NCBI GenBank assembly: GCA_003194525.1
Contig: NBIV01000113.1
Location: forward strand, 124,001-188,000
Source of the DNA: Gracilariopsis chorda
Taxonomy: Eukaryota; Rhodophyta; Florideophyceae; Gracilariales; Gracilariaceae
DNA length: 64,000 bases
Direction: 5' to 3'
The notes beneath the pieces were generated by a model that saw only the letters and a list, made by a program, of their open reading frames with translations, searched no databases and was not told the DNA's origin. Of this stretch, positions 11,704 through 64,000 are shown in pieces. The position numbers and the translations under genes are program-made. Each line of letters starts with the position of its first letter. The first letter of the stretch is position 1.

Positions 11704-11706
11704 AAC

Positions 11707-17328: not shown

Positions 17329-17339
17329 CATCTCACTTG

Positions 17340-23584: not shown

Positions 23585-23593
23585 TTCCTCTTG

Positions 23594-26936: not shown

Positions 26937-26947
26937 TCAGGGGGATA

Positions 26948-38340: not shown

Positions 38341-38431
38341 TCTGGTAGCATCTTTGGTCTTTCTCTGACCGCTGATTAACGCATACTTCCACTCTCTATC
38401 CCCTGCACCCCGCTCCATCCCCGTTCTCGAC

Positions 38432-39705: not shown

Positions 39706-39728
39706 CGCCGCCGCCTTGGAAGGCGGCG
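39696..39728 (+). promoter_or_regulatory. Programmed -1 ribosomal frameshift signal of gypsy-C
   Basis: A AAA AAC at 39696-39702 in the correct phase, the gag stop TAA right after it, a 6-base spacer, then an 8-bp GC-rich stem (39709-39716 with 39721-39728, loop TGGA). The pol frame begins exactly in the -1 phase (39702). Confidence 0.85.
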
Positions 39729-43229: not shown

Positions 43230-43454
43230 CATAGTAGTTCACCCCATACCACAACCACATCCTTCGTGTCTCGCCGCTTCTCTAGGAAGCTCCACGCTGG
43301 ATCAAGCCACGTACGCAGCCCTAGCTTGATCTAACAACTTCTATAAATAAAATCCCGCCCCAGGCTGATAGCTTAGAGGGGGCGGTCAGACCTTGTCTCC
43401 GACTCTTTAGTCGTATTTCGTGCGAAGCATCTACCCTACGACTGCTTCGTTACA
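43211..43454 (+). repeat. 3' LTR of gypsy-C
   Basis: 244 bp, near-identical to 38097-38340. Preceded by the purine-rich AGGAAGCGGGTGAG (43197-43210). Confidence 0.93.
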
Positions 43455-43753: not shown

Positions 43754-44140
43754 TCTGAGAAGATTTCTATGATCAGTTTGTCTAACAAACGTTGGAGTAC
43801 ACCTCGAGGTTTTCGCTCTCTGCGTTGCTGCGCTGCAGTTTTGCAGTGATCTCAGCGGTACTAATCTCTTGCTTTTTGATGAAATCTTAAGGACCATATC
43901 CCGGGAAAGGTTGATACGTTTGCTCCTTGAAATCGGAACATTGTTTATAGTGTTTCTCTTCTCAGTAACATATTGCGCCTGTAAAGTAATGTCCGTTGAC
44001 GGGATATCCTTCCAAGGTGTTCGTGGCCTTGCCCTCTCGCGAGGTATAGTCGGCAATAAAGCCCTCCGTAGCACACAGTGTTCGCTTCTAAATGATTGCA
44101 AGACAGCTGACTTCCGTTTTACCAGAGAACTGATCGTCTA
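43754..44140. other. Harbinger downstream region
   Basis: A 135-codon minus-strand frame (43694-44101, overlapping the transposase end) is basic and Ser/Arg-rich. Harbinger elements often carry a second, Myb-like gene in this position, but I cannot see Myb residues, so this stays unassigned. The copia-4 LTR begins at 44141. Confidence 0.25.
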
Positions 44141-44373
44141 TGGAAGGCTGAGTCGTCGCTGGGTTCGGAGGGTTGGATTGCCAGAGGCGAAAACATGGGG
44201 GACCGAGAGGGACTTAATTCCGCCGTATTCCCTTGGCTGTCCGCTCTCACGCCAGCGTCGTGCTGGCGCTTCTTCATTCGTTTTAAGTCGCGCTCCTCAA
44301 AAGCTCTCTTGCACCTCCGTGCCGGGAGCAGCGCGGAAGATGCCGAGATCGCGGCATGGCATGACAGTGTACA
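44141..44373 (-). repeat. 3' LTR of copia-4
   Basis: Read on the plus strand it starts TGGAAGGCTGAGTC and ends GACAGTGTACA, matching 51200-51433 with roughly one difference per ten bases. Immediately inside it the minus strand carries a G-run (ACAGGGGGGGTG), the candidate polypurine tract. Confidence 0.88.
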
Positions 44374-44575
44374 CTGGTATGGGTCACACCCCCCTGTTTT
44401 CGTCAAACGATAAGGTACGAGAAGTACAAACAACTGGGAGCGTGTGTCGCGCTAGATGTCGAACGCGTGTAACGGCGGCGCGACGGCAAGAACGGCAGCT
44501 GCATTGAGACAAATGCGCTACGAGATGGCGCGGCAAAAGGTGAGCTGCAGACGCCAGCGCAGTTCGATGAGCGCC

Positions 44576-44660
44576 GGGGAGGGGTAGTGCATGGCTGGGA
44601 GGCCCTGGGGGGCGTGGAGGAGAGCGGCGGGGCGAGGAGGCGGGGGGGGTGGGGGGAGTC
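44576..44660 (+). repeat. G-rich, G-quadruplex-prone tract
   Basis: Runs of 3-9 G's on the plus strand (for example GGCGGGGGGGG and GTGGGGGG). It lies about 350-420 bases before the antisense frame of copia-4 and could be its promoter region (inference). Confidence 0.6.
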
Positions 44661-45002
44661 AGACGGTGACATGTTTGTGGAGAAGGGCTGGGGCTGGGAG
44701 AGAAGGTGGGCTCCGTGCAGGAAACGGTGGAGGCTTTTTGCGGCACTAAAGGTTCCGCGCGGAACAAAGGTGGTTCGGGTGTTTGAAAGTTGTAGCACCG
44801 TTATTGATCTGGGTGAAAGCGACGTTTTCGGATATTTGGGGTCGTACCGGTGGCGACATAAGCATTTGAACAGTGCAACTCCGTTGGATCCGATTGACCA
44901 TAGTCGATAGAGCGTACTCGCAAAGAGGTCGTCAATCTACAGATTGCTCTAGGCTCTGGAGGGTGTTCAAAGGCGCGCTTAATACTAACCTCCTTTTTAA
45001 TC

Positions 45003-46372
45003 GTGATGCATTTGAAGTGTTTGGTGCAGAAGAAGTTCACCGCGCGTATTGATCCTGATGGAGGAAGCCTGTATCAGTTCAAGAAGAAGAAGTTAGCGAC
45101 GGTCGCGCGTGGCGCAAAGGAGAGTTGTGCAGGAGTAGGTGTACAGGACTTGGGGGACGTAGTACGTCGTCGTACAGAAAAATATGTTGCTCAAAGAAGA
45201 AAAAACGCCACTTTTCTTCTTGACTCTCCGTCAACAGAACAGGGTGGTTCTGGATGGACTATGGCGGAAATCGTGTCAACCACTAGGAGTGACGATCGTG
45301 GGCATGTGCGATTCCATTTGGAACATGTCGAAGGTCGGCATCGGGTTGTGAGTCAGGCGAATCTACTGACAACAGCAGGAAGGGTCATACTTAACTGGTG
45401 TTTGGCACGCCCGAATGGGTCCTTAGATCACGAAATGGCCTTGGGTTGGGTCTTGTAGCATGATGAAGTTAGTGGGGAAGAATGGAGTGTGGACGCTGTT
45501 GTTTTTGTTCTGCATGACAGTATTCTCCGATCGGCGCAAGGAGTGCGTTGCGTTCAAGGCCCTGCATATTATGCACGCAATCACGACGAACTGCATTGTG
45601 GTTGACATGAAGTACGGCTGCACACGCTGGACGGGCCAAGTTTGTGCAACGCGCTTGGAAAGGCCGGGATCTGGAAAGGTGGTACACAGTTTTCGCTGCA
45701 GTATGACTCATTGACCGACGCGAATCAGATTGTGCCTCGAGCGGCGCCTGGGGCAATTGATGCTTTGGATGAATATTGCTTGCAGGACCCCTTTGTACCT
45801 GTTCGTGTTTCGAGTCCAGGTGCTCGCGCTGCAACTCCAGACACAGATCCATTTCTACTGAAAGAGGATCAAATGCTAATTTGCAACACAAAGGTGTTGC
45901 GCTTACAAGCGTCACTTAGTAACGTGATTGCGCTTGTGATTAGCGAGGAGTATGCAACGGAAGTGATGCTCAAAGAGGCTCTACCACCGATTTTGTCTTT
46001 TGTAAACGCTGCACAATGGATTAACACGCACGCAAAGTGGGTGATTTTAAATCGTGTCCACTTTGGCGCTGAACATTGTGAGAGTAAGGTTGAATGGTTG
46101 GTAGCCCAATCAAGTGGTGTCTTTCTTGTGAGGCTGCGCGTGCAAAACGTGGATCATGTTGTATGTCTTGACGCGACGCGGCGCATGATTTGGATTCTGT
46201 CGAGCAGTTTCCAATGAGCTTGAGCGTGAAAGCACTGAGATGCTGTGTTGGTAGTGCTGATGGATTTGAACGTGTGATGGAGGTCCGCAAATTGGAAGAG
46301 CTGCGTCGATCTAGTGAAGGAAATCTATTTTCGTTGAAACTTTGTCATTGCAAACGACAAAAGGTAGGGTAA
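45003..46372 (+). pseudogene. Reading frame antisense to copia-4, family unknown
   Basis: Plus-strand frame 0 from ATG 45003 (MHLKCLVQKKFTARIDPDGGSLYQF) to about 46183, with stops at 45456-45458 and near 45608. A one-base shift then leads into DSVEQFPMSLSVKALRCCVG to 46370-46372. Segments such as EEWSVDAVVFVLHDS, RCVQGPAYYARNH and WKGGTQFSLQYDSL look like real protein. VDHVVCLDATRRMI (about 46150-46185) resembles the His-...-Asp part of papain-fold peptidases, but the matching Cys is not identified, so this is only a hint. About 440 codons with few breaks in the wrong orientation argues for a captured or element-specific gene. Confidence 0.45.
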
Positions 46373-46419
46373 GGCGAGGCAGGTTACAAAAACTTGCAGT
46401 GACGAAACATATAGGACTT

Positions 46420-49400
46420 TTAAACTTGCAGGACCTCGATACACTTGAGCAAACTTTCGGGAATTGCACCATCGTTCATAGATTTGTTCAGCATCTTGAG
46501 CGCATTAGGATTGATCTTCGTCAACGCGTCTGCAAGGTTAAGTGGACCTGGTATCCAACTTAGCTTGTTGATCTCGTTCGATTCGAACGAGTTTCGCAGG
46601 CGTGCGATTGTTGGTCTCGAGCGATAATCCTTTTGTTTGTGAAGGAGATATCCTTGAAAGCAATCCGTGCGAGTCCACCAACAATTGCAACATTTGTCTA
46701 GTGGTTTCACTGTTCGAACTCATGACAGACGGGAGTACCTGTGCTAGGTGGATGGCCCTGTCCGCTGTGTGAGCATCGGCAAGAATCTCTGCTCCTGCAG
46801 AGGAGAATGAAACTCGTTGCTGCTTCGAGGTATGCCAATCTACATAGTGCTGGACTAGATTTCAGTCCGAATGGCAGGGCAGGCAGCATAGTGTGCCCGT
46901 TTGCCCATAAGAGCCAGTGCCACTTGACGCATCGCTGATTGCAACTATAGTGACCGGGACTCGGCCGGGAGCATACGGTTCACAAAGTGAGCGGAAGGTG
47001 AGCTTGGGGTTGAAAGACTTCACGTGAACTAGAGCAGAGTTCAATTGGCGGATATGTGAGACAAGAAGGCGTGACACGTTCTGTTGCATCTTGCTAGCAA
47101 CAAGGGATGCTTGGAGAAGGATGCCATGCCCTAGGAAGTTCAACTTCCCTGTCAACGTTTGGAAGTGGCTTAGTTCTTCCTTGGTGCATTGTGCGTCGTT
47201 TTCCTTTTTACGCGCGTGTGTCAACTCAATCGGCTTGATGGAGTCCGCAAATTCTTCCATAGACACTCTTATGGAGAAGTCGGAATGTTGGCAGATGAAC
47301 AGTCGGTTGAAGACTATATCCAAACCGGAGGTGAACCTTCCGACGTCGACCGTAGTGCTTATTGCTTCCCGGAAATGGGTGGGCGCCGAAGGCTTTCCGT
47401 CGAATATCATGTCATCTGCGACCTTGCTGAGCATCAACTGACATTCGGAGTCTTTCCAAAGAAGAACGAGTTGGAAAAAACCCGGGACGAACGCGAAACC
47501 TTGCTCAAGGAGCCATTCTTCAACGCAGAGCTGCGACAGGCGGCCGGAGTCCACTAGTCCGTACGTTGGGGCCAGAAGCTTCCACACTACATCTTTGTAG
47601 TGAGTCCAGCCTCTTAGTGGGCGGACGTATACATCTCTGTTGAGCTCGCCTGCTTGCAAGTAAGGGGATTTAACATCAATCGAGGCTAGTGTGAAGTGGA
47701 AGATTGGAGCGAGCGAAAATGAGAGACGGATGGTTCGGAACTGCGCAGTTGAAGAATCGGATCGAAGTTCGTGCTTCTGGTTATCCTTGTTTTCATGATT
47801 TACAAGCCTGCACTTGAGCTTGAGAGTGTTACTCTCGCCGACATGCTTGATGTCAAAGAAGTGGTGTGACGAGATGAGGTTTGCCGATGGCGGCAGGAAG
47901 CGTATCGATACAGGCTGGAAGGTCTTCCGCTTGGGGTAAAACAGCTTCTCCTTCTCCATAGCCTCGTCTATCAACCATTTGGGAGCACATTTCAGCTTAT
48001 TCTCAGTTAGAGGCTCGTTCCCTAGGCATTCGTATACCTCTCGGAGGATAGCTTGTTTGGCAGACGTGAGCTGAGCAGTTTGTGGCAAAGGGCTCTTCAT
48101 TAGAGCGTAGCCTCCAATGTCTTTCGACGGGCAGTTGACTGGGCGCACGAGCTTGTTTTGCGTCAGATATGCCATGCTTGAATGATTGTCGTTCCACTCG
48201 GCAAAATCGTTAAGGCCAAGTTCGTCGTGTTCGAAGATACTCGGTGGTTCCTCAGTTACTTGAAAGAGGTCATTGGTTGAAGTGTCGTTTGGAGAACGTG
48301 AAGGTGGAGATTCGGGTGGAGGTTGCTCCCGTTCCTCCTTGGGGAACTCGTGCCAGCCGAGTTCTATTTCTTCAATGTCACGGAGGAGGTTGGATCGTGG
48401 CTTGAGGCGGAGGGCTTCATATGAAACAGTGTGGCTGAAGCCTTTAAAGTTCTTCGTAGTAGACACAATTGCATAGTGAAGGTGCCCCTCCCTCACCAAT
48501 CCGGAGTATCACTGGCCTCGTCTCGCTCCTTTCTTGAAGAAGTAGATGGCTGTTTCAGAAGATAGCAACGTCGGGTCGAGACTTTTTACATACTTCGAAC
48601 GCAGGAAGGTGTGGAGAGCGTGGCGGGTGGTCTTCTCGTGATACGCGTCTAATAGCTCTTTGCTGACGGGGCTTTGATCAAAGCCCGAGAGAGCTGGAAG
48701 GGATCCCCTATCCAGCTCAAAGCAGGAGAGGTATTTGGAGCCGAGCAGCGTATTTTTCAAGAAAACGGCACGAGCCAACATCTCCTGGTCAGAATGAACC
48801 GGCAAGCTGTTAGACGAACCGAACTTGTGTTCCTTAAGCAACCACTTTGCGAGGTATCGATTCGCCTAGTGAGAGGATTCGGATACTCCTGTTTTGTTGT
48901 CACGGTGCGCTGGCCTTGCAGAGTACTTGATGGAGTGAGACGCACACATGGTGGCGAATTCATTTGTGAAGAACTCGGGATCCCCGTAGATCCCTGCTGG
49001 GGGGCCGTTGACCAATATCCATTGCACGAAGAAGTTCCTAAAAGCTTCCTTCATCGTCCTCGAGAGCGATAGAGCCGCCGCGGAGAAGCCCGTTGCGGCA
49101 TTCTTAATGTGGAGGATGGGAAGGTTCCCTATTTTGGCGATAAACATGAAGTCTGCTTGTAAGTGCACGTTGAAAGCCGTCAAAAGTCGACCAAAGAATA
49201 CCTTTCGAGAGGAAAGCGGCCTTCCCGTCGAGACACATTATTGACATGATGAGAACGAGTCGGACAATAGAGACTCGAGAGTCCTGGTAAGCACACCGGC
49301 CCTGTTACAGATTCTGTTCATGTCCCTCGGAGGGAAGTGGGTGTACAGGGGGAAACGCTTAACGAAACGTTGGTCATTTTCGATGAGCTTTTGCGGAGAC

Positions 49401-49910
49401 AAAGCGGTCTTTGTACGGGATAGGAGCGACTTGACCGAAGCGTTGCTGGATGGTACTAGCAGCACATTTTGCTCTTCGACAGGTTTGTTCCGTTGTAATA
49501 CGTCGACAGGATGACAGGGCTCTCATTAGAGAGAACATCGACAGGGACCTGGATCCTATTTAGGTTCCCAAGTATGTCGCAATGAGACAGAACGTCTAGT
49601 CCAAGAAGAATGGGGCAAGTGCCCTCTACGACGTAGAAGCGAATAGAGAATGAAAGGTCATTCTCGTCTTGACCATGAAGGGTCCACCTGGCGAAGGTGG
49701 GCCTTGCGTCAGTGCAGGTCTCTCCAAAGCCGTGGAGGAAGGGCTGGCAACCCAATTGTTGAAGGACGAGCTCCACCCCTAACGAAACGCAAAGGCGGGA
49801 TATAGCATCAAGCCCTCCAACAATTTTCGGACAGCCGGGATCGAGGACAGGGTTTGGATCTTTGGAGAATGGGGGAACATCTGAATAGCCTCCTTCCCCG
49901 GCAGTTAGAG
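46420..49910 (-). pseudogene. pol: copia-4 pol: protease, integrase, RT, RNase H
   Basis: Protease PNPVLDPGCPKIVGGLDAISRLC (D-P-G for D-S-G) and CPILLGLDVLSHCDI in the -1 frame relative to gag to 49456. Then a frame change into one long frame (49465 to about 46620) with stops at 49238, 48866, 48509 and 46862. Integrase: DFMFIAKIGNLPILHIKNAATGFSAA, IYGDPEFFTNEF. RT: LISSHHFFDIKHV, LASIDVKSPYLQA, SKVADDMIF (the Y-x-D-D motif without Tyr). RNase H: VSFSSAGAEILADAHTADRA, then a frameshift near 46620 and INKLSWIPGPLNLADALTKINP. Order and motifs are standard RVT_2 copia. Confidence 0.85.
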
Positions 49911-51215
49911 ATGACTGCGTTGTGAGGGGTTGGAGCCCTGGCGAAAAGCCCAGTTGCTTCTTTCCATCTTAGTATCCTTGGGATTGCTTCGTCGTTCTGC
50001 TTCGCTTCTGATCTTCTTGGTCAGGAAGCTAGGGCACTTGCACTTGGAAACTCCACGACATTGCTCTGGGTCACCACAGTCGTAGCAGAATTCGTGTTCC
50101 GGTCGGTTTCTCTTGCCAGAGAACCCTCGATTTGAAGGCAGTCTGCTATTGTTACTGCCGCTGTTGCGAGGCGTTTTCGCAGAGTGAGAGTTATGGTTGG
50201 GCTCGTTTCGCTTCTGAAAGGCTGCAAGAGCTTGTTGAACCCGTTGTCCGACCATGTTCTCTATGTCGGCCTTGGTGTAGGCCTTTTTGGACTTCTTGGG
50301 AGTGAAGGGATTCATTATTACCTTTACCGCATCATCAAGGTGGAGCTTGCAGCGCTCACCAGTAGAGAATATGTCACGAGTGATTGACTGCTGGTTCGTC
50401 ATCTCCGTTGTGTAGTTGAACAGTTCGGAGTTGCGGTATATGAGTTGACGGGCACAGTTAACCAAATCAGTGGCCTTGCGACGAACGGTATTAGCGTTGT
50501 CGGGGGGCTGTGGTGTGGCGTCGTCGTTCTCATAAGATTCGGTGATCTTGCGGATAAACGTCAGAAGTGATTTGTCAGAAGACTTGGACATGGACAATTC
50601 GGGTTCAACTTCAGACCTCTGACGTGCGTCTGCTAAGGAGATAAGCTGAAGCTTTGCGTTTGTCATGGTTTCCTCGCTAAGCATGGTATTTTTCAGCAGG
50701 GTGATTGCCAAGACTTTGCTAACTTGGGCGGACTTCGAAAAACCAAATTACATCAGATGATCGGAAGCTAAATATCGGCCGCGTGAACCAAGGACGCTAA
50801 GGTCCTCATCACGAAGACGCTTACATTGAGTGATCTGATTGAACGAAGATATCAGCCTAGTGACAACTGCAATAGGTGGGCCAATTGCGATAAGCTGCAA
50901 AATCTGCCTAACTTCTTCAATTTGATCGTTCTGCTTGTAGTCGATGATTTTCTTGGCCTGAGCTTCATCCACGATAGATTCTTGTTCTCGGGGTGGTCCA
51001 CGGTCGTACAAATGACGTGCAAGTGTAGCATACACGGTTTCGTACAAGCAATCCGTGCCGTTTTCAGCGGCAGCTTGACTGGTTTCCACCCAGCGAGTCA
51101 CATCGTGACGATATTCTTGTAGATCGCCTTCTGGGTTAAACATCGGCTGATCAGTCGGTGCAAGTGGTTTTGAGGGCGTTGAGCCTGGGCCCATAACTAT
51201 GGAAGGCTGAGTCAT
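49905..51215 (-). pseudogene. gag: copia-4 gag with Cys-rich nucleocapsid
   Basis: One minus frame of about 436 codons with a single TAA at 50748-50750. The first ATG (51215) lies inside the LTR and reads through the PBS, so true initiation is probably further in. The C-terminal part has a basic stretch and CYDCGDPEQCRGVSKC near 50050-50095, a zinc-binding cluster replacing the usual CCHC. The last codons overlap the -1 frame that starts the protease. Confidence 0.75.
51186..51197 (-). promoter_or_regulatory. copia-4 primer binding site (initiator-tRNA anticodon arm)
   Basis: Minus strand GTTATGGGCCCA directly inside the 5' LTR is complementary to TGGGCCCATAAC, the anticodon stem-loop sequence of eukaryotic initiator tRNA-Met. 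Drosophila copia and relatives prime from exactly this half-tRNA. Confidence 0.75.
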
Positions 51216-51433
51216 CGCTGGGTTTGGAGGGTTGGATTGTCAGATTCGAAAACGCCGGGGACTGAGAGGGACGTAATTCCGCCGTATTCCCTTGGCTGTC
51301 CGCTCCCCACGCCAGCGTCGTGCTGGCGCTTCTTTATTCGTTTTAGGTCGCGCTCCTCAAAAGCGCCCTTGCACCTCCGCGCCGGGAAGAGCGCGGGAGG
51401 TGCCGAGGTCGCGGCATGGCATGACAGTGTACA
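51200..51433 (-). repeat. 5' LTR of copia-4
   Basis: Partner of 44141-44373. Shares the block CCGCCGTATTCCCTTGGCTG and the hairpin ACGCCAGCGTCGTGCTGGCG. Confidence 0.88.
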
Positions 51434-51636
51434 CGTGTATATGTCACATCATCACCTCTTTCTTAAGTAGGCATTGTAAAACCTGCTAAACCAATACCTT
51501 AATGAAGACCACTAGCACAGGGGGTCCATCTATCACAAACTGTACCTCACGTAACTACTCTGAAATGTAGGAAAATGTATTTTCTGTAAAATTATATTAC
51601 GCAAGGTGTTGAATTCATACTCTTACGTGATAAGTG
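51434..51636 (-). repeat. Probable 3' LTR fragment of copia-3
   Basis: Lies immediately downstream (minus strand) of the copia-3 stop codon. The minus strand begins TGTGACACTTATCACG, a plausible TG start. The partner LTR is outside the window. Cut by copia-4 at 51433. Confidence 0.45.
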
Positions 51637-53587
51637 TCACAGGCTACTGTCATCATCCCTCCCCATCACGGAAGAGTCAACAACTCCAAAATCCCTCCAT
51701 ATCTTTTCAAATCGAGTTTTCTGAAGAGGCTTTGTCATGATGTTGGCTGTCATTCTCTCCGTCGGATAGAATTCAATATAAACAATCTGCTCGTCAAGAG
51801 CATCCTTGACAAAATGATATCGTATGTCAATATGCTTACGACGTTTCTGGGAGCCCGCCCACGCTATTGCCCCTGCGTTGTCTTCGTAAATCTTTGTAGG
51901 TGCTTCCTGTTGAAATCCAATCTCACCTAACATGTCTCTCAGCCACATTAATTCCTTCAAGCATTCCGATAGTGCAATAAACTCTGCTTTGGAGGTAAAC
52001 AGAGCGACACACTTCTGTTTCGTAGTTTTCCATGATACTAGGCATGGACCAAGGAAAATAACAAATCCATACAACGACATTCTATCCTCGCAGGATCCAG
52101 GCCAGTCACTGTAAAAGAGTGCGGTGAGTCGCAGATCTGATTTCTTCGAGTACGAGTAGTATAGCGCAGACTTCTTCGTCTCCTTCAGGTAACGGGGGAT
52201 TCTTTTGATGGCAAATACGTCGGTTCGTGTGGCTCTCATCTGAAGCCTGCTCATTCTGTTGACTGCTACGGATATATTTGGGCGGGTACGACATGAGATG
52301 TACAGCAAAGATCCAAACGTCTCTCTGAACCTTATCTGCTGCTCTTAATCAACAATTTCGGTGTCGTCACCAACTTGCACAGTTATCACCGAGGTGGCCA
52401 CGCCCTTCGAGTTGTTCATGTTACATCGTTGCAGTAGAGAGATGGTGAAGCCCGACTGTGGGAGTAAGAATCCGCCCCAGTGTCGCAAGAATTCTACTCC
52501 ATGGAAGGAATTCACAGGACCAAGATCCTTGAGCTGGAAAGAAGCTTGCAATTTGCTCTTAGCTCGCTCATTGGCACCCGGAGATTGGGAAACAATAATT
52601 GCATCATGGACGTATACGATATCTCATACAATCCCGGCCTTGGTCCGTTTGATGAAGAAACATTCTTCGGCCTGACAGGTTGGTACTGGATGTTCAAGAG
52701 AGTTTCTTTCCATTTTTTCGACCAGATCTTGTTTGAATTCTTCAAGCCGTAGAGTCCACGCAGTAACAATAGCTTCATCTTCCTTCAGACCAATGTCCAG
52801 TCCTTTCGGTGGGACCATGTAGACTTGGTTTTGCTCTGGTAGAATGCCGTTCAAAAACGATGAATAAATGTCCATCTGGTGTGCTTCGTATCCGAACATG
52901 GCAGCGAGCGCATTTATCACTATTACACTTTCGTAGTCAGCAACAGGTGCATACAAATCTTCAACCACTCCCTGTTGACAGCCCTTGGCAACTAAGCATG
53001 CTTGTTACTTGTCCAATCTGCCATCCGCAAGTTTCTTCATAACAAATATGAACTTAGACTGACTGATGCGAATTCCTGAAGGAACTTTCACCTTCTTCCA
53101 TGTCTGGATTACTTCAAGAGTTTTCAGCTCTTCTTCGACGGCATTCCTCCAATGCTCTGCATCAACTCTTGATAGCGCATCAGAAATTGACTCTGGTGGT
53201 ACATCAACCTTTTCAGGCACAAGTCTTGTTGTTCTCATCAACTTAGATGCCTCGTAACGCAATGGAGGTCTCCGTTCTCGCTCAGGATACCTTCGAATCG
53301 GGTAATGCGTTACACATTCCAGCTGCTCCCTAGAGAATTCTTCAGATTGCTGTGAGGTACTGGTCGTAGGACTAGGCTGTTCGTTGAGATCATCTACTTT
53401 TCTACCGTGGTTACCAGGTGGGGGCGAAAGACTAGCATTGGTAACTTGATTATCGTCATCCGCTGGTAGCTTGTTCTGATTTTGGAGTGTTTCGTCGCCT
53501 TTCAATTCGATTTACAGCTCCTCAGCACTGCTCTGTCCTTTTTCAGCTTGGCTTTGAACGATTCCTCTTCCATGGAAAAGTTCGAAC
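51637..53587 (-). pseudogene. pol: copia-3 pol, C-terminal half: RT and RNase H
   Basis: Minus strand, RVT_2 reverse transcriptase and copia RNase H. From 53505: linker YPIRRYPERERRPPLRYEASK, then ESISDALSRVDAEHWRNAVEEELKTLEVIQTW, KLADGRLDK, a TAA, then QACLVAKGCQQGV, APVADYESVIVINALAAMFGYEAHQMDIYSSFLNG, and VYVHDAIIV-like after a TGA. Then FQLKDLGPVNSFHGVEF, a TAA at 52345, and YISCRTRPNISVAVNRMSR...GFVIFLG...SKAEFIALSECLKELMWL...EDNAGAIAWAGSQKRRKHIDIRYHF...ANIMTKPL to the stop at 51637. The integrase that should precede is missing; gypsy-B sits there. Confidence 0.85.
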
Positions 53588-54413
53588 TGAAGTGCAACGC
53601 CCACAGGGAGGGATTCCTGGTACTTGATCGTTTTCCCGATATTATCGGTTGTGTAGTGTGTATATGAACTACGCCCCATGATGGGTGGCATGGACAAGTG
53701 GGACACGGTTTTGGGTCAATTGCCGGTTGGCCACAGTAGTGGATGTTGCCACGAAATGTGGAGTATTTTAGTTGATTTTATTTATTATTTTCACACCCAT
53801 TTCTGGGAAGCTAGTGCTTAGTGCAACGGCGCACTGCCGTCGCACCAGTAAACCTTCCCCAACAAGGGACCCCAACCTGGGGAATTGGCTCTTGTTGTTA
53901 CCGCTTGCGCGCGTGCTCTACTCCTCCTTGGAGGGAAACGCCGTGAACCACGAGACATCTAACCCCCTTGCACATCTAAAGGGACCCATCACTGAGAGTC
54001 ATATTATTCCAATTGCATTCGTGTTTCGCCCTGTATAGGGATATTGTTACCGGCATCGCCGTTCGCCCCCGTCGCTCTCGCGACTCACTTCGTCCTCTCT
54101 CCCTCCTCTTCGCCCTTCCTTTTTCCCCTTTTTAGGGTAGCACCTCCCCCTATCCGCGGTTCTCGTGTGCGCATCCGTCCACACACCCCCACTTACGTGG
54201 AAACATACCTCTACTGAGGATCACACCCCGCTCACGAGGATACCAATTCTTCGCCTTCACCTCCCTGCCCGAGTCGCGACAGGTGTCCCTGGTCTTACAA
54301 ACCGGCTTCGCCGTGACACCTCTGGGAGGGCTCTACCCCACTGGGTTCACCTCCACGGAGGAAAGATCCCGAACTTCTTTCGGTGTTTCTCCCCTTTGGG
54401 GCGTTGCACCACA
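53588..54413 (+). repeat. 5' LTR of gypsy-B
   Basis: Starts TGAAGTGCAACGCC and ends GTTGCACCACA (inverted match to the start). Hairpins such as CCGAT-att-ATCGG, CCCT-gtat-AGGG, CCAC-ttac-GTGG and CCCC-ttt-GGGG recur through it. The final hairpin ACCAC-aaa-GTGGT spans the LTR end and the PBS. Confidence 0.9.
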
Positions 54414-54416
54414 AAG

Positions 54417-54434
54417 TGGTCTCCCGACCTAGAA
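54417..54434 (+). promoter_or_regulatory. Primer binding site of gypsy-B
   Basis: TGGTCTCCCGACCTAGAA, identical to gypsy-A, three bases after the LTR end. Confidence 0.72.
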
Positions 54435-54518
54435 TCAGTTTTTGTTTTCCCTCTTACGAGGTTTGTTTTTATTTACCGGAAGTTCCGTGATCGTTTCCCG
54501 TCGTAACGGTATTTTCTG

Positions 54519-56691
54519 ATGTCGAGAAATCCCTCCGATGCGGAGCCAGTGGTTACGCGTAGTCGCTCCCGCGACAACGCGGACACTTCCGAAGTTCGGT
54601 TCGTACCCCGTATCCCTATACGGACAAGTTCCAGCCGTACTGGCGCCGCTTCATCGCGGAATGATACCCCGACCGGGAACCCCGGAACCTCCTTTTGCCC
54701 TCGTTATCACCCCCGCAGGGGAATGCAGCATCAACTCCGGCTGTTGCCTCAGTGCCCCAGGCACCCCGGCCTGCTCCCGCTGTCGCGGCTTCAAGCCCCC
54801 GTGGAACGGGCGATAACAACCCCCAGGGGACTTCCCTGGAATCCCAGGTCCGCGCTCTGTGGACCGCCCATGACACCCTTGTAGGGGAACTAAAATCCCT
54901 CCAAGAGGTGGTCTTGGCAACCCCCGTAAAGGAGGTTGCCGAGGAACTCCGTATTTTACGGTCTGACGTCAACTCCGTGTTGGAGAGTTTGGGGCAACCC
55001 GCCACCTTCATCGAAGGAGTTGAAGCCCGATTTGATCGGATTGGTGCCCGCCTGGAGACGCTGGAGCAGTTCGTCCTCATGGACAAACCATCCCAGGATG
55101 ATCCCGTAAACGAGGCATCGCACAACGACCAGCTTGCTGGGAAGAAGAAACGCCGTCATCGACGGAAACGCCACCAAAAATATTCGGATTCCGATTCTTC
55201 GACATAGTCGGACTCATCCCGAAACCATTCGGTTAGCTCGAGCTCCTCAGACCCCGACTCGGAGGACGAGAAGCGAGGCTACTCCTCCCGCTCGAAGCGG
55301 ACATCGGCCACTAAAGGTGTGATCCGAACCCGCCAGAAGGGGAGAAGACACCCCGATCTCCGGGAATTGAAACCGACAAACCCGGATTACCGGAAGCTTT
55401 TATCATACCGGTACTACCGGCTCGAAGATTCGTCACTTGGACGTACGCCCTGTGGTACGGGAAAGGTGCGAGAATGCATTAAGCGAATGCAGCTCTCGCT
55501 CCGCAACCAGTATTTTACTGGAGATGCCCGGTCCTAGTACTGGATTTCCTATCCCGCTTTGTAGCGGATGCCAATATCCTCGGTATGAATGAGGGACAAG
55601 CCTATTTGGCTTTACCGTATTTCTTACGGGGAGTGGCGGAGGACCAATACAACTCTGTCAGAGGATCTTCTCGTGCCTCCGAGGGAGGGGTTACTTGTTT
55701 GCCGGAGGCTGTGCAGTATCTTCTGCGCTCCTACGCCACAAACATCGCTATTCAGCAGGCTATCCTCGCTTTGCGAGATACACGCCAGCGTGCTGGAGAG
55801 ACCAAGACCGATTACTCGGTGCGCCATAACAAGGCTTTCCACATATGTGGTAACGTATACCCCGCTGGGGAGCGTTGTACCATGTTCATCGATGGTCTTG
55901 ACCAGGCAATCCGGAGTTTAGTTACCCGTTATCGGGAGGACAAGCGGAGGATCACCTATCTCGAGCTGGTACAACACGCTCGAGCGGAAGGGGATGCATT
56001 TCGTGCAAGAACTCCGAACAATCGGTCTAAATCCGCCACGGCGTTGTTGCTAGAAAGTGAAGCATCCTCACTCCCGCTCACTGCGGATGGGAACCCTGGA
56101 CAGGGATTTGATACCGTGCATTTAGTGCAGGGGGATGGTGTGTCGATACCCACCAGTGATTTGCCGTCGACGATGGAGATGACCCGTGATACGGGAACAG
56201 AAGATCCCGTTCTATACTGTGGTAACGGTCGGGTCCAACCCCAATGACTCCCGTTTTCAAACGGTCATTCCCGTTATCAACGGCCTGGATGGACTGAAAC
56301 CCGCCCTGCGGTTCGCTTCTCCGATACTCGGAATAATAATCCGCGTGTCGCGCTGTTAGCTCTCATTTGCCACCTTTGTTATGCCAATGGCCATACCTCG
56401 CCTCAGTGTATCTGCTCACTGAAGGATATGGCCAAGGTGGTGGCAAACCTCGAGGCCCTCACTCCAGAGGAGAAACGTTCCGTCCCGACGGCTTCCTACC
56501 TTCGTGCTAAAACGGACTTTTCCCATGCCCTACCACAGACCGCGCGTGCGCGGCAAGCTTCACACACCCCGATTCGGGAGATCATGCAACCACCCGTTGC
56601 AACCCCCGCTTATGCGGATAGAAACCCCCGTCAACGGGATGAAGCACTCGTTGTCGAGGAACCCAACCCACTGCCGAAGGCGGAAAACTAA
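54519..56691 (+). pseudogene. gag: gypsy-B gag
   Basis: Starts ATG 54519 (MSRNPSDAEPVVTRSRSRD). A frameshift near 54685 leads to the coiled-coil and Arg-rich part (to TAG 55205-55207) and onward to a one-base loss near 55530. The capsid region then runs ANILGMNEGQAYLALPYF... to a TGA at 56245-56247. After it the zinc knuckle CHLCYANGHTSPQC (56368-56409) and the end PKAEN, TAA 56689-56691. Collinear with gypsy-A gag. Confidence 0.85.
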
Positions 56692-56706
56692 CTGAGGGAG
56701 TCTCCC
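56682..56706 (+). promoter_or_regulatory. Degenerate -1 frameshift site of gypsy-B
   Basis: G GAA AAC then TAA: one base away from the G GGA AAC of gypsy-A. The -1 frame is open (LTEGVSPLGEAS). A stem TCTCCC/GGGAGA with loop CTTT follows from about 56701. Confidence 0.5.
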
Positions 56707-59700
56707 CTTTGGGAGAGGCGTCCTCAGACAGGAGGATGTTGGCGCCCGAGGCGTCCTCGCCTCGCTCCCCACTGAAAGTCCTCTCGAGGAAAGACACCGC
56801 TGACGCGACTCTGCGCACCTCGATGTGTTGCGTCGCCCGTGGATACGGAGTAAAAATCCCCGGATTCCCGGTAGAGTCTTGGTCTTGGCCAAGCGCAATT
56901 ACAAGGTCTATGCCGACCTTGGCCTTGATCCCCAGTTTATGGTGAGGTTTCTCACCGTCCTGGATACAGGTGCAGGCCCCAACTTTGTTGTGGAATCATT
57001 GTTACCCCCGCTTGTGCGGTCTCGTATCCGCTCTGACGCGATCCCCGACATTTAGGATGGGAACAACAATCCGTTACCAACGGTGGGCACAGTGGACCTC
57101 GTCGTGAGACTTGGTACCTCTGTGGTGAAGTTGGACTTCATCGTTTGCTGTTCATTGGCAACACCAGTCATACTGGGATGTGATTACTACGACAGATTTG
57201 TCGACGCAATCGGACCCCGCCTCAGGCGTGTAGAACTTGACGACGGATCGTTGGTTCCGATTGTTCGCCGCCCGCTAAAGCGGTCCTCCCGGAAACAAGT
57301 TCCGCTCCCTGCTGCGCAGGAACCACTGCCCGCGTCCCGCGAGTCCACCAAGCTCTGCGTCGCTACCTCCGTTTCTATACCGGCTGAGTCCCAAGTCTGG
57401 GTGCAGGTAAATTCCCGTCAACACGGTCTTCGGGTTATACAACACCTCGCCTCGTTGTACGAGAAATCCCAGGTGGCGCTGGCTAATGGAATTTTCTCCA
57501 TTTCCCCGGATGTTCCTTTCCGGATATTGGTTGCCAACCTTGGCAAACACCCCCAGTAGCTCGTCAAACACCAATCAATTGGGAGTGTAACCCCCCATCC
57601 TATGGGAATGCTGCCAACGAAGATGACAGTGGGCGATGTACTCGGAGTTACCACCTCTTCTGAGGAGTTTGCCCCGCCGTCCGAAAACGTCAAGTCTAAG
57701 GAGGGGGAGGAAACCGCTACTTCAGCGTCAAACATACCGAGTAACTCGGAATTGCGTACCACACCTGTTCCACAGGACAATGCTCCATCGAGCAACGACC
57801 GGATTGATCCGGAAAAGGCACTTGAAGCGCTGGACTTCAGCCACGTGCCAGAGTCGCACCGCGACAAACTCCGTACAATGTTACGGGAATTCACCACAAT
57901 GTGGGATGGCTCGCTTGGCGAGATTAATGCAACGGAACACCGGATCGATTTATTCCCCGGTGCGCGACCGGTTGCACAACCCCCTTACAGGGCAGGTCCG
58001 AAAGCTCGGGAAGAGGAGCAGTCCCAAGTGGACAAGATGCTCCGCGCAGGTGTGATTGAGCCCGCTCAATCACCCTGGGCATCCCCAGTTGTACTGGCTT
58101 TGAAGGCCGACGGAACCTGGAGGTTCTGTATCGATTACCGCCGTCTCAATGCCGTGACTGTTAGGGACACGTAACCTATCCCTCGTATGGACGAGTGTAT
58201 TGACTCCCTCGGAGACGCCACCGTTTTCACGGCTCTCGATGCCAATTGGGGATATTGGCAAGTACCTGTCAGACAGGAGGATCGCGACAAAACCGCATTC
58301 ACCTGCCACACAGGAACGTACCGCTTCAAGCGGATGCCATTTGGGTTACCCAACGCCCCCGCCACCTTTCAGCGTGCAGTAGATATTCTATTCAACCGCT
58401 TTAGGTGGCGGAGTTGTCTGGTCTACCTTGATGATATTATCATCTTCTCCAACTCGTTGGACGACCATCTCACTCACATCCGAGACGTGCTGACCGTACT
58501 CCACGATGCGGGAATTACCCTCAGGTTGAGGAAATGCGAGTTTTTCACGGATACTGTGAAGTATCTGGGTCACATTATCCGTCCTGGACGGTTAGCGATC
58601 GAGAAAGCTCGAGTCAAATCCCTCGTTGAAGCGAAAGAGCCCCGTACTCAAACGGAACTGCGCTCCTTTTTTGGGCTGTTCAACGTCTATTGACGGTTTA
58701 TCCCAAACTTTTCGGATACTGCGGCGCCCCTGAACGCGTTGTTGCGAAAGGGGAACCCCCCAAAACTGGGAAGATTTACGCCCGAGCAATCGGAAGCCTT
58801 TAACTCCTTGAAGGAGGCTGTCACATCAGCACCAATCCTACATCTCCCAAAACTTGGGTTGCCATACTCCGTAGATACGGACTCGAGCGACTACCAAGTC
58901 GGGTGTGCTCTTTTTCAAACCACCCCCGAGGGGGAACGACATCCAATTGGTTATTGGTCACGTTCGCTCAATGCTCATGAGCGGAACTACTCCGTATCGG
59001 AGAAAGAGTGCCTCGCCGTCGTATGGGCGATGACCACTCTGCGCCCCTACCTTATGGGAGTTCACTTCACCGTGTACACGGATCATTCCTCATTGAGGTG
59101 GTTAATGAATATCTCCGACCCGTTGGGACGCCTCATGCGCTGGAGACTCGGCCTCGCGGAATATGACTTTCAAGTCATTTATAAAAAGGGCGCGCAGAAC
59201 ACCCAAGCCGACGCCCTGTCGCGTTTACCCACAAGTGGGGAAGCACTCCCAACGGAGGATGATGAAGTCCCATGTTTCATGGCCATAGACCCGGATTATC
59301 CGGAATGTGCCGTCGAGGCTGGGCCAGAAAACTGGGACGAGGATGCTGACTTTGACGAACTACTCGCATCGCGAGATGAATCTGAGAACCCGTTACCGGG
59401 AAACTTTGTACCGGTATCACCGGAAGAAATGATCCGAGAACAACTCGGCGACCCATTCTGTACGAGGGTTCGTGCCCGTATCAACGGTGGTGAAGATCTC
59501 CCTTTCGGGGTAAACGACAAAGGCTACCTCTTGAGGAAGGTCGAAGCCCCTCCACAGATTGTGGTACCTCATTCCCTGCAGTCGCGGGTGTTACATCTAT
59601 CACACTACGCCCCCATTGGAGGTCACCCAGGTGGGAGGAAACTCTACCTAACCCTGCGAAGGGATTTGTATTGGCCCGCCATGGAGGTGGATTGCTACGC

Positions 59701-62417
59701 AACCGTGCGGTTTTGTAGCGAATGCGCGAAGAATCGCGTCAAGCTACGCAAAAATGCGAAGAAGATGAAACTATTCCCCGCAAGGGCGCCGCTCGAGTTT
59801 ATCGCGATCGATATTCTCGGACCACTACTCACCACGAAACGTGGAAAGAAGTTTCTACTTGTCATTACCGACCGCTTTCCTAAACTGGTACGGACTGTCC
59901 CTCTTCGGAGGATAACCGCTCTCACGGTGGCCCAGGCTCTGGTGACGCACTGGATTTTCGTCTACGGTCCCCCTGTGGAGGTGCTCTCTGATAACGGGAA
60001 ACAATTCGCGAGCAAGTTCTTCCAGGATGTTTGTCGCATCCTGGATGTCAAAAACTTGTTCACGACTACCTACCACCCCCAATGTAATGGGAAAGTTGAA
60101 CGGTTTAACCGGAAGTTACTCGCGGCGTTACGTTCCTACGTCGCAGACCACCCAAAGAACTGGGAAATGTACGCTGATGCGGTAACCTACGCGTACAATA
60201 CGCAGGTACACCGGACTACCGGAGTTTCGCCATTCGAGTTGGTTCTATCTAGAACACCCCCGCCTGTGGCGCTGGGACCCCAAGCTACCTTGGACAATTT
60301 CCCATCAGTGGGTATCTACCGGCAGCAATGGAAGCAATGGCTTTCCAAGCTGGTCCTCGCTGCGCGGAAGTCTATGGCACGGGCCCAAGCCGCTTACAAG
60401 CGGGATTTTGATGCTCGTTTGCGAGGGAAACCGTCCCCGATTCGGGCGAATAACTATGTCTTCATCAGGAAGGAGTACTACAACCCGGAATGGGAGAAGC
60501 GCCATAAACTCTCGCCTGTGGCGGATGGACCATTCAAGGTCATCTCTGTAAACACCGACACTGTCGTGGTAGAGATGGGCGACACGCACGAACGGATTTC
60601 CCGTGATCGTGTTGTCGTTGCCCCTCCTCCCTCGTCAGAGGTAGTCCTGGATCCAGGCAACCCCGTTTCTACGGACTCTGCAACACCGGAATCATCCGGG
60701 AGTACTAGGCCTACGCTACTACCACACCCCAGCCGGGGACTCTCAGACCTACCGACCCTGTCGGACTCACCGGCTCAGCCGGGGAATTCGGGCCTCTCAG
60801 TGCCCGCCCCTACCACGCCTGCCCCACTGGCGCGCATTTATACCCGCCAGGCGGGGAATGTTATCCCTTATCCTGCCACTCCGTTTAAAGAGGGGGAGGA
60901 GAACACTCGTTTTCGAGGAACGATATCGCCGTCGCAACGGGAAACACATCGTAACATACGGAACACTGACCGTGGAGCACGGAGTATGTCGCGCGACACT
61001 AATCCCCCGTTCTCTGGCAGTGCTGTGCAACAGGAACCAGACGCGCAGGCCCCGCAAAAGCGGCAAATACACCGTTTGTCATGGGAAAACGAGTAGCCTC
61101 CCTCCAATACCGCAGCAGCGGAAATGCAATCGCCCGATCCATCCCCGGAGGCATCGCCACAAACGCGGGAAATATACCATGCTACACGGGAAGCTGAAGC
61201 GCAACTACCGCACACCCCTGTCAGGGAAGGATCCCCGATAAGGGAGTATGGTGACGATTGCCCCCAATCTCCTGGGCAGAGCGATGCATCGAAGCCGCCA
61301 TTGGCGGAAGCCCCCGCGGAAGCGGTTCAATTAAGTCCAGCAGACCCGTGCCCCGCGGGGAAGAGGTGCCCAGATACGCCAGCCTCACAGGGAAATACCC
61401 ACACCCCTCTTGGGGAAAAAGGCAGCCAAGCCGCAGTCGAAGCTTCAGGCCCTGGCGCGCAAGCGACGGAAACGCCTCCCGTCGTCGACGGAATGGAAGC
61501 CCCCGTTCCGGGGAATAATTTGCGCCAACTTCCGCAACGCTGCGGCGAAGAACCGAGGAACTCGGGAAAAACGCGCGCCATCGCACGCTCGAAACCGGTC
61601 GTACCGGACGCTGCCCCTCATCATGGAGACGGTGCCCCGCGCCTAGCGGCAAGGCCCCTGAAAAGGGTGTCATCGGCAACTGCCCGGCACCCCCCAAAAG
61701 GGGAATTTTAACCACAATGCCGGTGTACCGGAGTTAGCCTTAGGCAACCCCCCAGTAGCCGGGGACACCACGGCACAGCCGGAACGTATGGCAGAAAACG
61801 CTCATGACTCCCCAGGGGAGGCAGAACGCTTACCAATCACCGTGTCGCACGGGACCCCGCAGGGGATGTCGCAAACACCGTTCCCGCATACGCGGCAAAG
61901 ACCCCGCAAGCTCGCGGTTCGCGAAGAAGACCGCACTCGCGGAGTTCAAGTCCCCCGCCGACTGGCGGTTCGCCCGGCCTACCGTGATGACGGGAACAAC
62001 GACGCCCCTCTGGGGAATAACTTGGCTGTGAAAACCATGACGCCAAACACCCTCTTGAGGGATATCCTCCCGCACGAGCAGCTGCCGCTACCACAGTGCA
62101 CGGCAACGCCGGAGTTATCGCCGAACACCCTGCTAAGGGACATTATACCGCACCGCGGGCAACCCTCACAAGGGAGTACAATCACCACCCGGCACGGCCG
62201 GCAGGTCTACAAACAAGAGTTCGTAGTAGACCGACTTGTCGGACACACCTGGGACCAGGATAGTATTCTACAATACCGCGTCCGCTGGTATGGGTATGAC
62301 CCCAGTGGGGATACGTGGGAGCCAATCGAACACCTCCCACGGTCGCAGGTCGTGCGATACCACTGTCAAACGGGAACTGCAGCTCCAGCCAAGCTGGTAA
62401 ATGCCCAAGTGGGGTAA
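56688..62417 (+). pseudogene. pol: gypsy-B pol: protease, RT, RNase H, integrase, linker, chromodomain
   Basis: Starts in the -1 frame, shifts near 56820, then stays in one frame to 61711. Protease TVLDTGAGPNFV (56960). Stops at 57053, 57557, 58172 and 58691. RT: GTWRFCIDYRRLNAV, CLVYLDDIIIFSN (YLDD 58424-58435). After TGA 58691 a frame of about 800 codons is open: RNase H (SVDTDSSDYQVGCALF, YTDHSSLRW, ADALSRL), zinc motif HYAPIGGHPGG...CSECAK, integrase FIAIDILG (Asp), LSDNGKQF (Asp), VERFNRK (Glu), GPY/F-like IRKEYYNPEWEKRHKLSP. A stop at 61094-61096 lies in a very long Pro/Ser-rich linker. After a frameshift near 61720 the chromodomain follows: YKQEFVVDRLVGHTW...ILQYRVRWYGYDPSGDTWEPIEHL (about 62208-62340). 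Confidence 0.9.
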
Positions 62418-62673
62418 CGTTGCCGCGCGAACGTAGGGCGATAGGGAAGGATAACAAGGCAAGGTCCGTCGAGTACGGGGAACTCAAACGAGAATCACCG
62501 TTCTAAACGGGAAAGTTTAGTCAAGGGAGCAGCTAGCTCCCCACAACACTATACTACAATAGCTGGCTATGGCAGGAAAGAAGAACCGGAGACCGCGCAC
62601 GCACTTTTATCACCCATTTTCGTCTGGGAATCCTCCGCGTCCGCGGTCGTTTTCCCGTCTTAGGGGGGGGATA

Positions 62674-63168
62674 TGAAGTGCAACGCCCTCAGGGAGGGAT
62701 TCCTGGTACTTGATCGTTTTCCCGATATTATCGGTTGTGTAGTGTGTATATGAACTACGCCCCACAATGGTGGGTATGGAAACGTGGGACACGGTTTTGG
62801 GTCAATTGCCGGTTGGCCACAGTAGTGGATGTTGCCACGAAATGTGGAGTATTTTAGTTGATTTTATTTATTATTTTCACACCCATTTCTGGGAAGCTAG
62901 TGCTTAGTGCGACGGCGCACTGCCGTCGCACCAGTAAACCTTCCCCAACAAGGGACCCCAACCTGGGGAATTGGCTCTTGTTGTTACCGCTTGCGCGCGT
63001 GCTCTACTCCTCCTTGGAGGGAAACGCCGTGAACCATGGGACATCTAACCCCCTTGCACATCTAAAGGGACCCATCACTGGGAGTCATATTATTCCAATT
63101 GCATTCGTGTTTCGCCCTGTATAGGGATATTGTTACCGACATCGCCGTTCGCCCTTGTCGCTCTCGCG
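62674..63168 (+). repeat. 3' LTR of gypsy-B, truncated
   Basis: Follows the polypurine run TTAGGGGGGGGATA (62660-62673). Matches the first 495 bp of the 5' LTR and then breaks off at GCTCTCGCG. The last 331 bp are missing. Confidence 0.9.
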
Positions 63169-64000
63169 CGTGATAAATTACTTGTTTCCGCCAACGCTTG
63201 CCGTACTTAATGGACCACATATGTCGGAGAAGATTATTTCCCCAACATCTAAGGCCTTATTGGTTCCTCCGATTAAAGGTTATCTTGACATCTTTCCTTC
63301 AAGGCATGGAATGCAATTCATTCCCTGGTCAGCCTTTGCCTGGATGTCTAGTCCATTCACAAAACCATCAGTTTCCATTTGTTTGATGCGGGTTTGGTCC
63401 GCGTGGCCAAATCTGCAAGGCCAGAGCTCGATCCCGGTTTGCCGTTCTATATTGGTGACATAAGCTCTATATCCATGGATGGGAAATCTCACCACTCCAT
63501 TCAGCTCAAATAGTCCTTGACGACCACGTTTTCTCGTGTCTTTATAGGTTCCGTTCGACAGTGTACACCCGTTGTTGTCAATGGTTATGCGTATCCCACT
63601 GTCGGTAAGGGCTTGGAAGGGAACGAGGTTACAGTCCAGGTCTGGTACGACCAAGACATTCCTAAGCTGTAGGCAAAAGGCCAATGGCTGCGGGCGTTGT
63701 AGTCCGGACTTCGAGGTTTCCGACCAAATTAGATTCAATACTCCTTCCATCACCAAGGTTAATGGTTCTAGGGGTTACCGGTCGGAACCTGCTAGCCAAA
63801 CTAACGTCGTTCACCATATCGCAGGTGGCTCCCGAATCGATGACAAGCGCAGCCTGCTCTCCCCAGGGCTGCCTTTGTTCCCGGGTTACCAAATCAAACT
63901 GCTGAGTGTTGTTGTGGTTCTTGATCCTGTCCTTTTTTCTTCTGCATTCTCGCCTGTACCGGCCAAAGTTTCCCCATTGGTAGCACAGTGCTTTGGCCTT
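63169..64000 (-). pseudogene. copia-3 gag end, protease and integrase start
   Basis: Minus strand. CYQWGNFGRYRREC (about 63945-63985) is a CCHC zinc knuckle with Cys to Trp and His to Arg. AALVIDSGATCDMVND (63800-63850) is an intact protease site, with LGDGRSIESNLVGNLEV downstream. Then NVLVVPDLDCNLVPFQAL and GLFELNGVVRFP, and the GAG-pre-integrase segment LWPCRFGHADQTRIKQM...CIPCLEGKMSR with one stop. FSDICGPLSTASVGGNK is the beginning of the integrase core, followed by TAA where Tyr is expected, just before gypsy-B. The same element continues at 53587-51637 without its integrase core. Confidence 0.8.

Follow-up and report, generated by a model that had tools for sequence, protein, structure and literature searches.

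The genome of the red alga Gracilariopsis chorda harbors a lineage of Ty3/gypsy chromodomain retrotransposons in which single-strand hairpins spanning 11–15 nucleotides (nt) are, in coding and non-coding sequence alike, roughly threefold denser than expected by chance. We describe it from a 64,000-nt stretch of contig NBIV01000113.1 (positions 124,001 to 188,000; hereafter the window), in which the lineage is represented by gypsy-A and gypsy-B, and we concentrate on the latter, a hairpin-saturated Ty3/gypsy chromodomain element on the forward strand (53588–63168) with long terminal repeats (LTRs) 97% identical to each other and 274 hairpins of 12–14 nt, one per 35 nt. The excess is independent of codon usage and limited to the element, and the hairpin array is a genuine, clearly delimited and puzzling feature of this retrotransposon lineage.

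Hairpins were counted as maximal perfect Watson-Crick stems, with dinucleotide-preserving shuffles as the baseline: 100 shuffles for stem counts over whole elements and 200 for each segment in counts of 12–14-nt hairpins. A first-pass annotation of the sequence had quoted nine gypsy-B hairpins, all nine of which lie where it placed them, and had put the frequency of stems along the element at one every 20–30 bases. Stems of at least 4 base pairs (bp) with loops of 2–8 nt indeed occur once per 21 nt (464 versus 230.1±16.8 in shuffled sequence, z 14.0); this excess is real, although the estimate had left out of account that chance alone yields one per about 42 nt. Stems of at least 5 bp number 147 versus 51.4±6.8 with loops of 3–8 nt (z 14.0) and 119 (one per 81 nt) versus 27.9 with loops of 3–5 nt; for the latter the shuffles give about one per 340 nt, close to the once per 300 bases assumed for random sequence at the outset. 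The spacing of the hairpins shows no clear regularity, centre distances being mildly in excess at 16–27 nt only, and no known RNA family was matched in 53500–63250, the one hit, at E 0.4, lying far under the gathering score.

The excess extends over gypsy-B from LTR to LTR. Nine segments, which leave two short gaps of the element uncovered, together hold 267 hairpins of 12–14 nt versus about 87 in shuffles, and each is raised 2.6–3.4-fold, LTRs and coding segments alike. The 5' LTR (53588–54082) has 12 versus 4.4 expected and the 3' LTR (62674–63168) 15 versus 4.5, bearing out the early remark that the pattern is also in the LTRs. The stretch 3' of the 5' LTR (54083–54890) has 24 versus 7.4; up to 54662 it contains stop codons in all three forward frames (54083–54662), and this first part is, on its sequence, probably untranslated. 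For coding sequence the control was synonymous-codon shuffling, which retains the protein and the codon counts. Hairpins with 4-bp stems and loops of 3–6 nt remain in excess under this control in all six gypsy-B pieces of open reading frame (ORF; z 3.0 to 7.5), including the reverse transcriptase piece (58187–58693; Pfam RVT_1, E 7e-33; 17 versus 9.3±2.5) and 58739–61093 (89 versus 39.4±6.6), which belongs to the RNase H–integrase piece (58739–61096; Pfam RT_RNaseH, Integrase_H2C2 and rve). The chromodomain piece (61788–62417; Pfam Chromo, E 2e-10) has 28 hairpins versus 9.6 in synonymous shuffles. With 5-bp stems, z in the piece 61124–61708 is only 1.5, and there is no excess in the three ORFs of gypsy-C or in the Helitron ORF, both from control elements described below. 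The pattern is indifferent to coding, and hairpin density in gypsy-B lies above dinucleotide-preserving and codon-preserving shuffles and above gypsy-C, the comparisons proposed in the first-pass annotation.

What saturates the element is not hairpins in general, as the earlier wording implied, but just hairpins of about 11–15 nt in total. The excess is 2.94-, 3.19-, 2.94-, 2.15- and 1.58-fold at spans of 11, 12, 13, 14 and 15 nt, respectively, and at most 1.16-fold at 16–30 nt; a 1.6-fold excess at 9–10 nt probably stems from hairpins nested in longer ones. In pooled single copies of gypsy-B subfamily B1 and of two sister families, D and E, the combinations of stem and loop that stand out are 5 bp with 3 nt (101 versus 14.7), 5 bp with 4 nt (54 versus 14.1) and 4 bp with 4 nt (178 versus 53.4), followed by 4-bp stems with loops of 3, 5 and 6 nt. 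Stems of at least 6 bp are less raised (13 versus 5.0 at loop 3 and 9 versus 4.9 at loop 4), loops of at least 7 nt show little excess, and gypsy-B alone has the same stem-by-loop pattern as the pooled copies. The loop sequences look random, and the part that the hairpins share is the base of the stem, 5'-CC...GG-3'. Given CC-N8-GG (n=208), successive inner pairs match at frequencies of 0.59, 0.57, then 0.25 and 0.20, and given CC-N9-GG (n=227) at 0.48, 0.50, 0.45, then 0.25, where shuffles give about 0.25 throughout. The pairing thus leaves off at a 4-nt or a 3-nt loop, respectively, so that these are hairpins with arbitrary but complementary interiors. The orientation of the base is also fixed to a large degree: at the two outermost pairs, C-G outnumbers G-C by 130 to 27 and 122 to 38 at span 12 and by 78 to 8 and 74 to 7 at span 13, while the inner pairs have no such bias and A-T pairs also count among them.

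Loop-free inverted repeats are about as common in gypsy-B as in shuffles (27 versus 26.4 for 4 bp, 6 versus 6.7 for 5 bp). Stems with a 1-nt loop are raised (19 versus 8.2 for 5 bp, 15 versus 1.8 for 6 bp), which can be read as 4-bp and 5-bp hairpins with 3-nt loops whose loop ends match by chance. Since pairing stops at the loop and loop-free repeats are at chance, the pattern points to a strand folding upon itself and not to a palindromic duplex site for a dimeric protein. The element is rich in CC and GG, and one might therefore suppose an artefact of composition or coding, or a set of sites for a dimeric DNA-binding protein. We regard this supposition as hardly credible: composition is ruled out by the dinucleotide, synonymous and codon-order shuffles, and dimer-bound palindromes by the arbitrary complementary interiors together with the chance level of the loop-free 4–5-bp repeats.

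The window itself provides controls. In 1-kb bins, the excess spans gypsy-A, vanishes over most of a Helitron-like insert within that element (about 16.6–23.7 kb) and then resumes; gypsy-B is raised throughout, and isolated bins elsewhere reach 1.8–2.2 (those starting at 19001 and 49001). The internal parts of gypsy-A, which is on the forward strand, have 77 hairpins of 12–14 nt versus 41.5 (1.85-fold) in its 5' part (11009–16333, LTR 11009–11699) and 47 versus 28.7 (1.64-fold) in its 3' part (23787–27659, LTR 26950–27659), so that gypsy-A is, as first supposed, less saturated than gypsy-B with its 2.6–3.4-fold segments. The insert (16600–23700, limits approximate, forward strand; Pfam Helitron_like_N, E 6e-25) serves as an internal negative control, with 74 versus 66.9 (1.11-fold); its long ORF contains tandem repeats of 21 and 99 nt. 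In gypsy-C (38097–43454, forward strand), a further negative control, the count is 38 versus 44.6 (0.85-fold), and other DNA of the window is at 0.96- and 1.05-fold. These three are also near chance (0.26–1.26-fold) when stems of at least 4 bp with loops of 2–8 nt or of at least 5 bp with loops of 3–8 nt are counted. The copia element (44138–51448, reverse strand) has 80 hairpins of 12–14 nt versus 65.4 (1.22-fold, z 1.9), a number reached by 9 of 200 shuffles, and is mildly raised on the two broader counts (1.21- and 1.44-fold, z 3.0). The statement that the pattern is missing from gypsy-C and copia hence stands for gypsy-C and, as to the 12–14-nt pattern, for copia, but not for every kind of stem in the latter.

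Two side observations concern these controls. In copia, longer stems (at least 6 bp, loop 3–8) are mildly raised (21 versus 9.2±3.1) without the CC..GG pattern, and CC-N8/9-GG pairs in three copies of gypsy-C are below shuffles (23–27 versus 36–37), the opposite of gypsy-B.

A property of the host genome as a whole is not supported, as host DNA, gypsy-C, copia and the Helitron are without the pattern or nearly so. The same fact weighs on the idea that the hairpins mask the nascent strand, an upstream CC catching each new GG and thereby hindering R-loops or polymerase backtracking. That CC precedes GG, most plainly in the outer pairs at span 12, and that the span is short would both suit such a role, as would the scarcity of G on the sense strand beside the 212 CC..GG hairpins (0.13 versus 0.24 in controls at position +1, 0.15 versus 0.21 at −1), which is the clearest remainder of what had appeared to be A-rich flanks, a feature that mostly shrinks against a CC/GG control. 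However, CC comes first on the opposite strand too, and with the other sequences of the same genome lacking the pattern we find masking quite improbable.

How far the trait extends was surveyed in the genome assembly (91.3 Mb, 1081 contigs) at 72 loci, namely 68 loci and four further stretches. Among the 68, three (L001, L002 and L039) represent the gypsy-B copy of the window, and L001–L008 contain LTRs with DNA to either side. They fall into subfamilies of gypsy-B (B1, B2 and a few others) and the families D and E, and every one has 1.63–3.67 times as many 12–14-nt hairpins as shuffles. The further stretches, from family F (L071), family G (L069, a relative of gypsy-A), E and D, give 2.51, 1.61, 2.26 and 2.49, respectively; all 72 loci are thus raised (1.6–3.7). 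The window's gypsy-B, with 97 hairpins in 3.5 kb, has fewer than all but one of the 28 further full-length B loci (93–113). Identity between families is 64–72% in DNA (G–A 74%; B1–B2 93%), and the proteins of B, D, E and F are 65–75% identical. The trait is absent or nearly so from four copia loci (0.97–1.30) and from three loci of gypsy-C, among them the copy in the window (0.74–0.96).

Among the 120 protein relatives listed for the RNase H–integrase piece, the sole organisms to be named are the red algae Chondrus crispus and Agarophyton chilense. Two scans of viral contigs found no relatives, and genome contigs yielded one foreign locus, L080, which is 43% identical in its best segment, lies on a Ty3/gypsy-like contig binned as Moorena and has an open frame of 1674 amino acids; its hairpin ratio is 0.95, and the trait is absent. 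With the sister families having the trait and gypsy-C, copia and L080 lacking it, this is a feature of one lineage and not of Ty3/gypsy elements generally, and we have little doubt that hairpin density is a trait of the element lineage. L080 does carry, at 5494–7149 downstream of its long frame, nine near-constant hairpins of 19 nt with 8-bp stems and 3-nt loops (type CCGGCGCCTACGGCGCCGG), a different, conserved repeat.

Let us now consider how the hairpins change. Between families, positional conservation was judged against stems of equal length with loops of 14–60 nt; the comparison uses ordered pairs of six families, which are hence non-independent, and pairs with B2 were excluded from the pooled counts. 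In 245 of 1570 cases a hairpin recurs at the corresponding position in the other family, versus 528 of 8626 in the control, so that about 84% are not kept; a hairpin retains its place, though changed, in 69 of 1570 versus 145 of 8626. Where both sides have changed, they still pair in 351 of 758 cases versus 1451 of 3973. Changes confined to one arm show no excess between families (0.298 versus 0.332 in the control), and the 5' and 3' arms diverge almost equally (0.343 and 0.355). Between copies, 538 two-state columns were considered, of which 165 were set aside, in most cases for other changes within 16 nt. The 297 usable changes found in a single copy (private changes) create a hairpin 33 times (about 10% expected) and destroy one 81 times (about 26% expected), as random changes would; the 76 changes shared by at least two copies create 13 and destroy 20. 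In 42 clusters of private changes, the hairpin count goes up in 4, down in 9 and stays the same in 29. Fixed differences between B1 and B2 are rarer in the arms (40/881 and 29/811) than outside them (121/2214 and 139/2325).

The rates among private changes speak against a mutation bias on the host side, and they weaken the case for a bias confined to reverse transcription. The level of gypsy-A (1.6–1.9), whose LTRs are 81% identical, fits roughly with neutral decay from the level of young gypsy-B copies. Given the neutral private changes and the decay of gypsy-A, upkeep most likely takes place in the replicating lineage rather than in resident copies, and it is the density, not the positions, that is kept up there.

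Replication of these elements passes through reverse transcription, and the reverse transcriptase might itself be the source of the pattern. Template switching at quasipalindromes makes imperfect inverted repeats perfect, and an enzyme copying its own fresh strand, folded over a loop of 3–6 nt, would likewise perfect near-hairpins as a by-product for which no function is needed. The Watson-Crick pairing, with near-perfect stems that at middle positions are about as frequent as by chance, the sharp size limit, the indifference to coding, the near symmetry of the strands and the positional turnover with some pairing-preserving change would all follow, and 37 of the 156 polarised B1/B2 differences create hairpins against about 12% expected. 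On the other side stand the random rate of creation among private changes, the change clusters, more of which lower than raise the count, the lack of a one-arm-only excess, the like divergence of the two arms and the fewer arm changes between subfamilies. The first-pass annotation had itself offered repeated template-switch correction as a reading, and private changes weaken it, since creation and destruction are both at random rates, while a bias restricted to reverse transcription is less affected; indeed, most private changes are probably host-born, so that the tests on them are weak for errors of the reverse transcriptase, and a single-base correction leaves no burst. We consider this origin a contender, though an unlikely one, and on the whole lean towards selection rather than reverse-transcription bias.

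The explanation that we favor overall, tentatively and at somewhat less than even odds, is weak selection for local folding of a single strand, with the hairpins perhaps acting as sites for docking or condensation by Gag or its nucleocapsid (NC) part. Weak selection predicts fewer changes in the arms and some extra creation of hairpins. It would act in the replicating lineage on the local folding of a single-stranded replication intermediate, a single hairpin being worth little. The hairpins would then be equivalent to one another, strung along the genomic RNA or the first-strand complementary DNA (cDNA) as sites of docking or condensation for Gag/NC, of which gypsy-B encodes a CCHC knuckle, and the CC/GG base of the stem and the upper size of about 15 nt might be what Gag/NC accepts. 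We hold this assignment of function with low confidence and think it doubtful. Packaging or nuclease resistance, an early suggestion, is a conceivable role. In a broader form, the whole genome of the lineage might be overlaid with a structural code of roughly 200–300 micro-hairpins per element, equivalent to one another and maintained in number but not in position, coexisting with the protein code and serving packaging or copying through a hairpin-reading protein; this we regard as possible, if less probable than not.

Folding energies, computed on 3.5 kb per family and per 150 nt against shuffles, bear on these ideas. When only pairs within 15 nt are allowed, both strands fold well below shuffles, with mean z between −1.7 and −3.3 for each 150 nt; once long pairs are admitted, between half and 70% of this gain in kcal disappears. 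The ratio of sense-strand minimum free energy (MFE) with long pairs is then 1.14 in B1, 1.08 in D and 1.04 in E (mean z −1.59, −0.95 and −0.48), compared with 1.02 in gypsy-C, 1.03 in host DNA and the Helitron, and 1.04 in copia (z −0.40). With long pairs, the gain over shuffles is clear in B1 and D and not in E, which is no higher than copia, and RNA structure over the full span is no more than possible. Folding of the RNA, an early suggestion, accordingly gains from the stability of short-range pairing but not from the near equality of the strands or the scant enrichment of G.U pairs, and is possible only; the strand that folds is possibly the genomic RNA, the first-strand cDNA or both. An apparent lean of the G.U pairs towards the antisense strand comes mostly from the outermost and innermost pairs; at the middle pairs of stable stems the counts are 38 versus 30.0 for sense and 50 versus 35.0 for antisense.

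Several observations weigh against selection for folding as we have framed it. The folding excess is about equal on the sense and antisense strands, the preferences in flanking pairs are nearly symmetric between them, and pairing is nearly strictly Watson-Crick, G.U at middle positions numbering 187 versus about 159 and A.C 186 versus about 179, which would be odd for RNA. One-sided changes to G.U are not favored (596/2611 versus 3585/15693 in the control). Private changes are also somewhat rarer in the arms of B1 (16/882 versus 54/2219), and not in those of B2 (34/812 versus 99/2330). Of 189 differences between B1 and B2, 33 could not be polarised; the 156 polarised ones create a hairpin in 37 cases and destroy one in 42, the neutral expectation being about 12% and 34%, a result between selection and templated bias. 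Finally, neither the preponderance of C-G relative to G-C at the base of the stem nor the drop in enrichment beyond 15 nt is likely to come from stability alone.

A different reading takes its model from persistent RNA viruses. Genome-scale ordered RNA structure (GORS) consists, for example in coronaviruses and hepatitis C virus (HCV), of hundreds of sequential, largely unbranched stem-loops in coding RNA at poorly conserved positions (PMC7642675), and on that account it is the closest kind of system, sharing with gypsy-B the many stem-loops along coding RNA and the poor conservation of positions and pairings. If folding as such hid the RNA from RNA interference or host sensing, position would be irrelevant; the retention of density while positions turn over and the local folding energies would agree with this. 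Yet the excess here is confined to about 15 nt or less, and stems of at least 6 bp are less enriched than 5-bp stems at loop 3. The near equality of the antisense strand and the sequence-specific stem base are not obviously expected from folding as such either, and we judge this explanation improbable. The differences from GORS are otherwise that the carrier is an LTR retrotransposon, that 4–5-bp stems lie within about 15 nt with no excess beyond, that G.U is hardly used, that the base is a specific CC/GG and that both strands are about equal.

Other known systems resemble the array in part. Dispersed packaging signals of RNA viruses such as MS2 are likewise many small, degenerate stem-loops spread over a genome, with a recognition motif in the apical loop and a bulge (PMC6281560); gypsy-B, unlike MS2, has loops that look random and a constant stem base. 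Genomic RNAs of Ty3 and Ty1, LTR retrotransposons of which Ty3 belongs to the same superfamily, are described as having dispersed structure, a patchwork whose structured parts make up as much as 30% of the RNA (PMC11381356), unlike the uniform array of 11–15-nt hairpins in gypsy-B. Quasipalindrome-associated template-switch mutation occurs at imperfect inverted repeats as mutational hotspots (PMC7202029), whereas the gypsy-B pattern is element-wide and its private changes are without such a bias. Among the titles and opening lines of abstracts listed for open PMC papers, none reports hairpins of this kind in a retrotransposon.

As to the remaining features of the window, gypsy-B has the parts of a Ty3/gypsy chromodomain element, namely LTRs, reverse transcriptase, RNase H, integrase and chromodomain in that order, a Gag CCHC zinc knuckle of nucleocapsid type (56368–56409), found by motif scan and lying in a frame of the window copy, and a protease DTGA motif (56963–56974), also from a motif scan. 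A run of eight G resembling a polypurine tract (62663–62670) was read in the sequence just before the 3' LTR. The aligned LTR edges (53578–53587 and 63169–63178) show no evident target-site duplication, and the LTR as aligned is without a terminal CA; the true edges may differ from the aligned ones by a few bases. Elsewhere in the genome, gypsy-C matches on contigs C953, C873, C857 and C230 follow one another at intervals of about 5.1 kb along a single strand, as if tandem copies shared LTRs, and six copia reverse transcriptase matches lie on one strand at about 2.7-kb spacing in C383:36202–50459, perhaps an array.

What makes this lineage worth attention, irrespective of the details of any model, is the nature of its unit. 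GORS has been hard to explain because its structures are diffuse and unconserved, while the unit in this lineage is very small, can be counted and has sharp limits. Moreover, a single genome holds families with the trait, elements without it, and many copies gaining and losing hairpins neutrally, which makes selection, bias and function separable by experiment. If the mutation bias is true, a reverse transcriptase would be remodelling its own genome through the kind of error it makes, a behavior of which we have met no earlier description in the literature. If selection is true, a dispersed structural code would have evolved over the whole length of the element.

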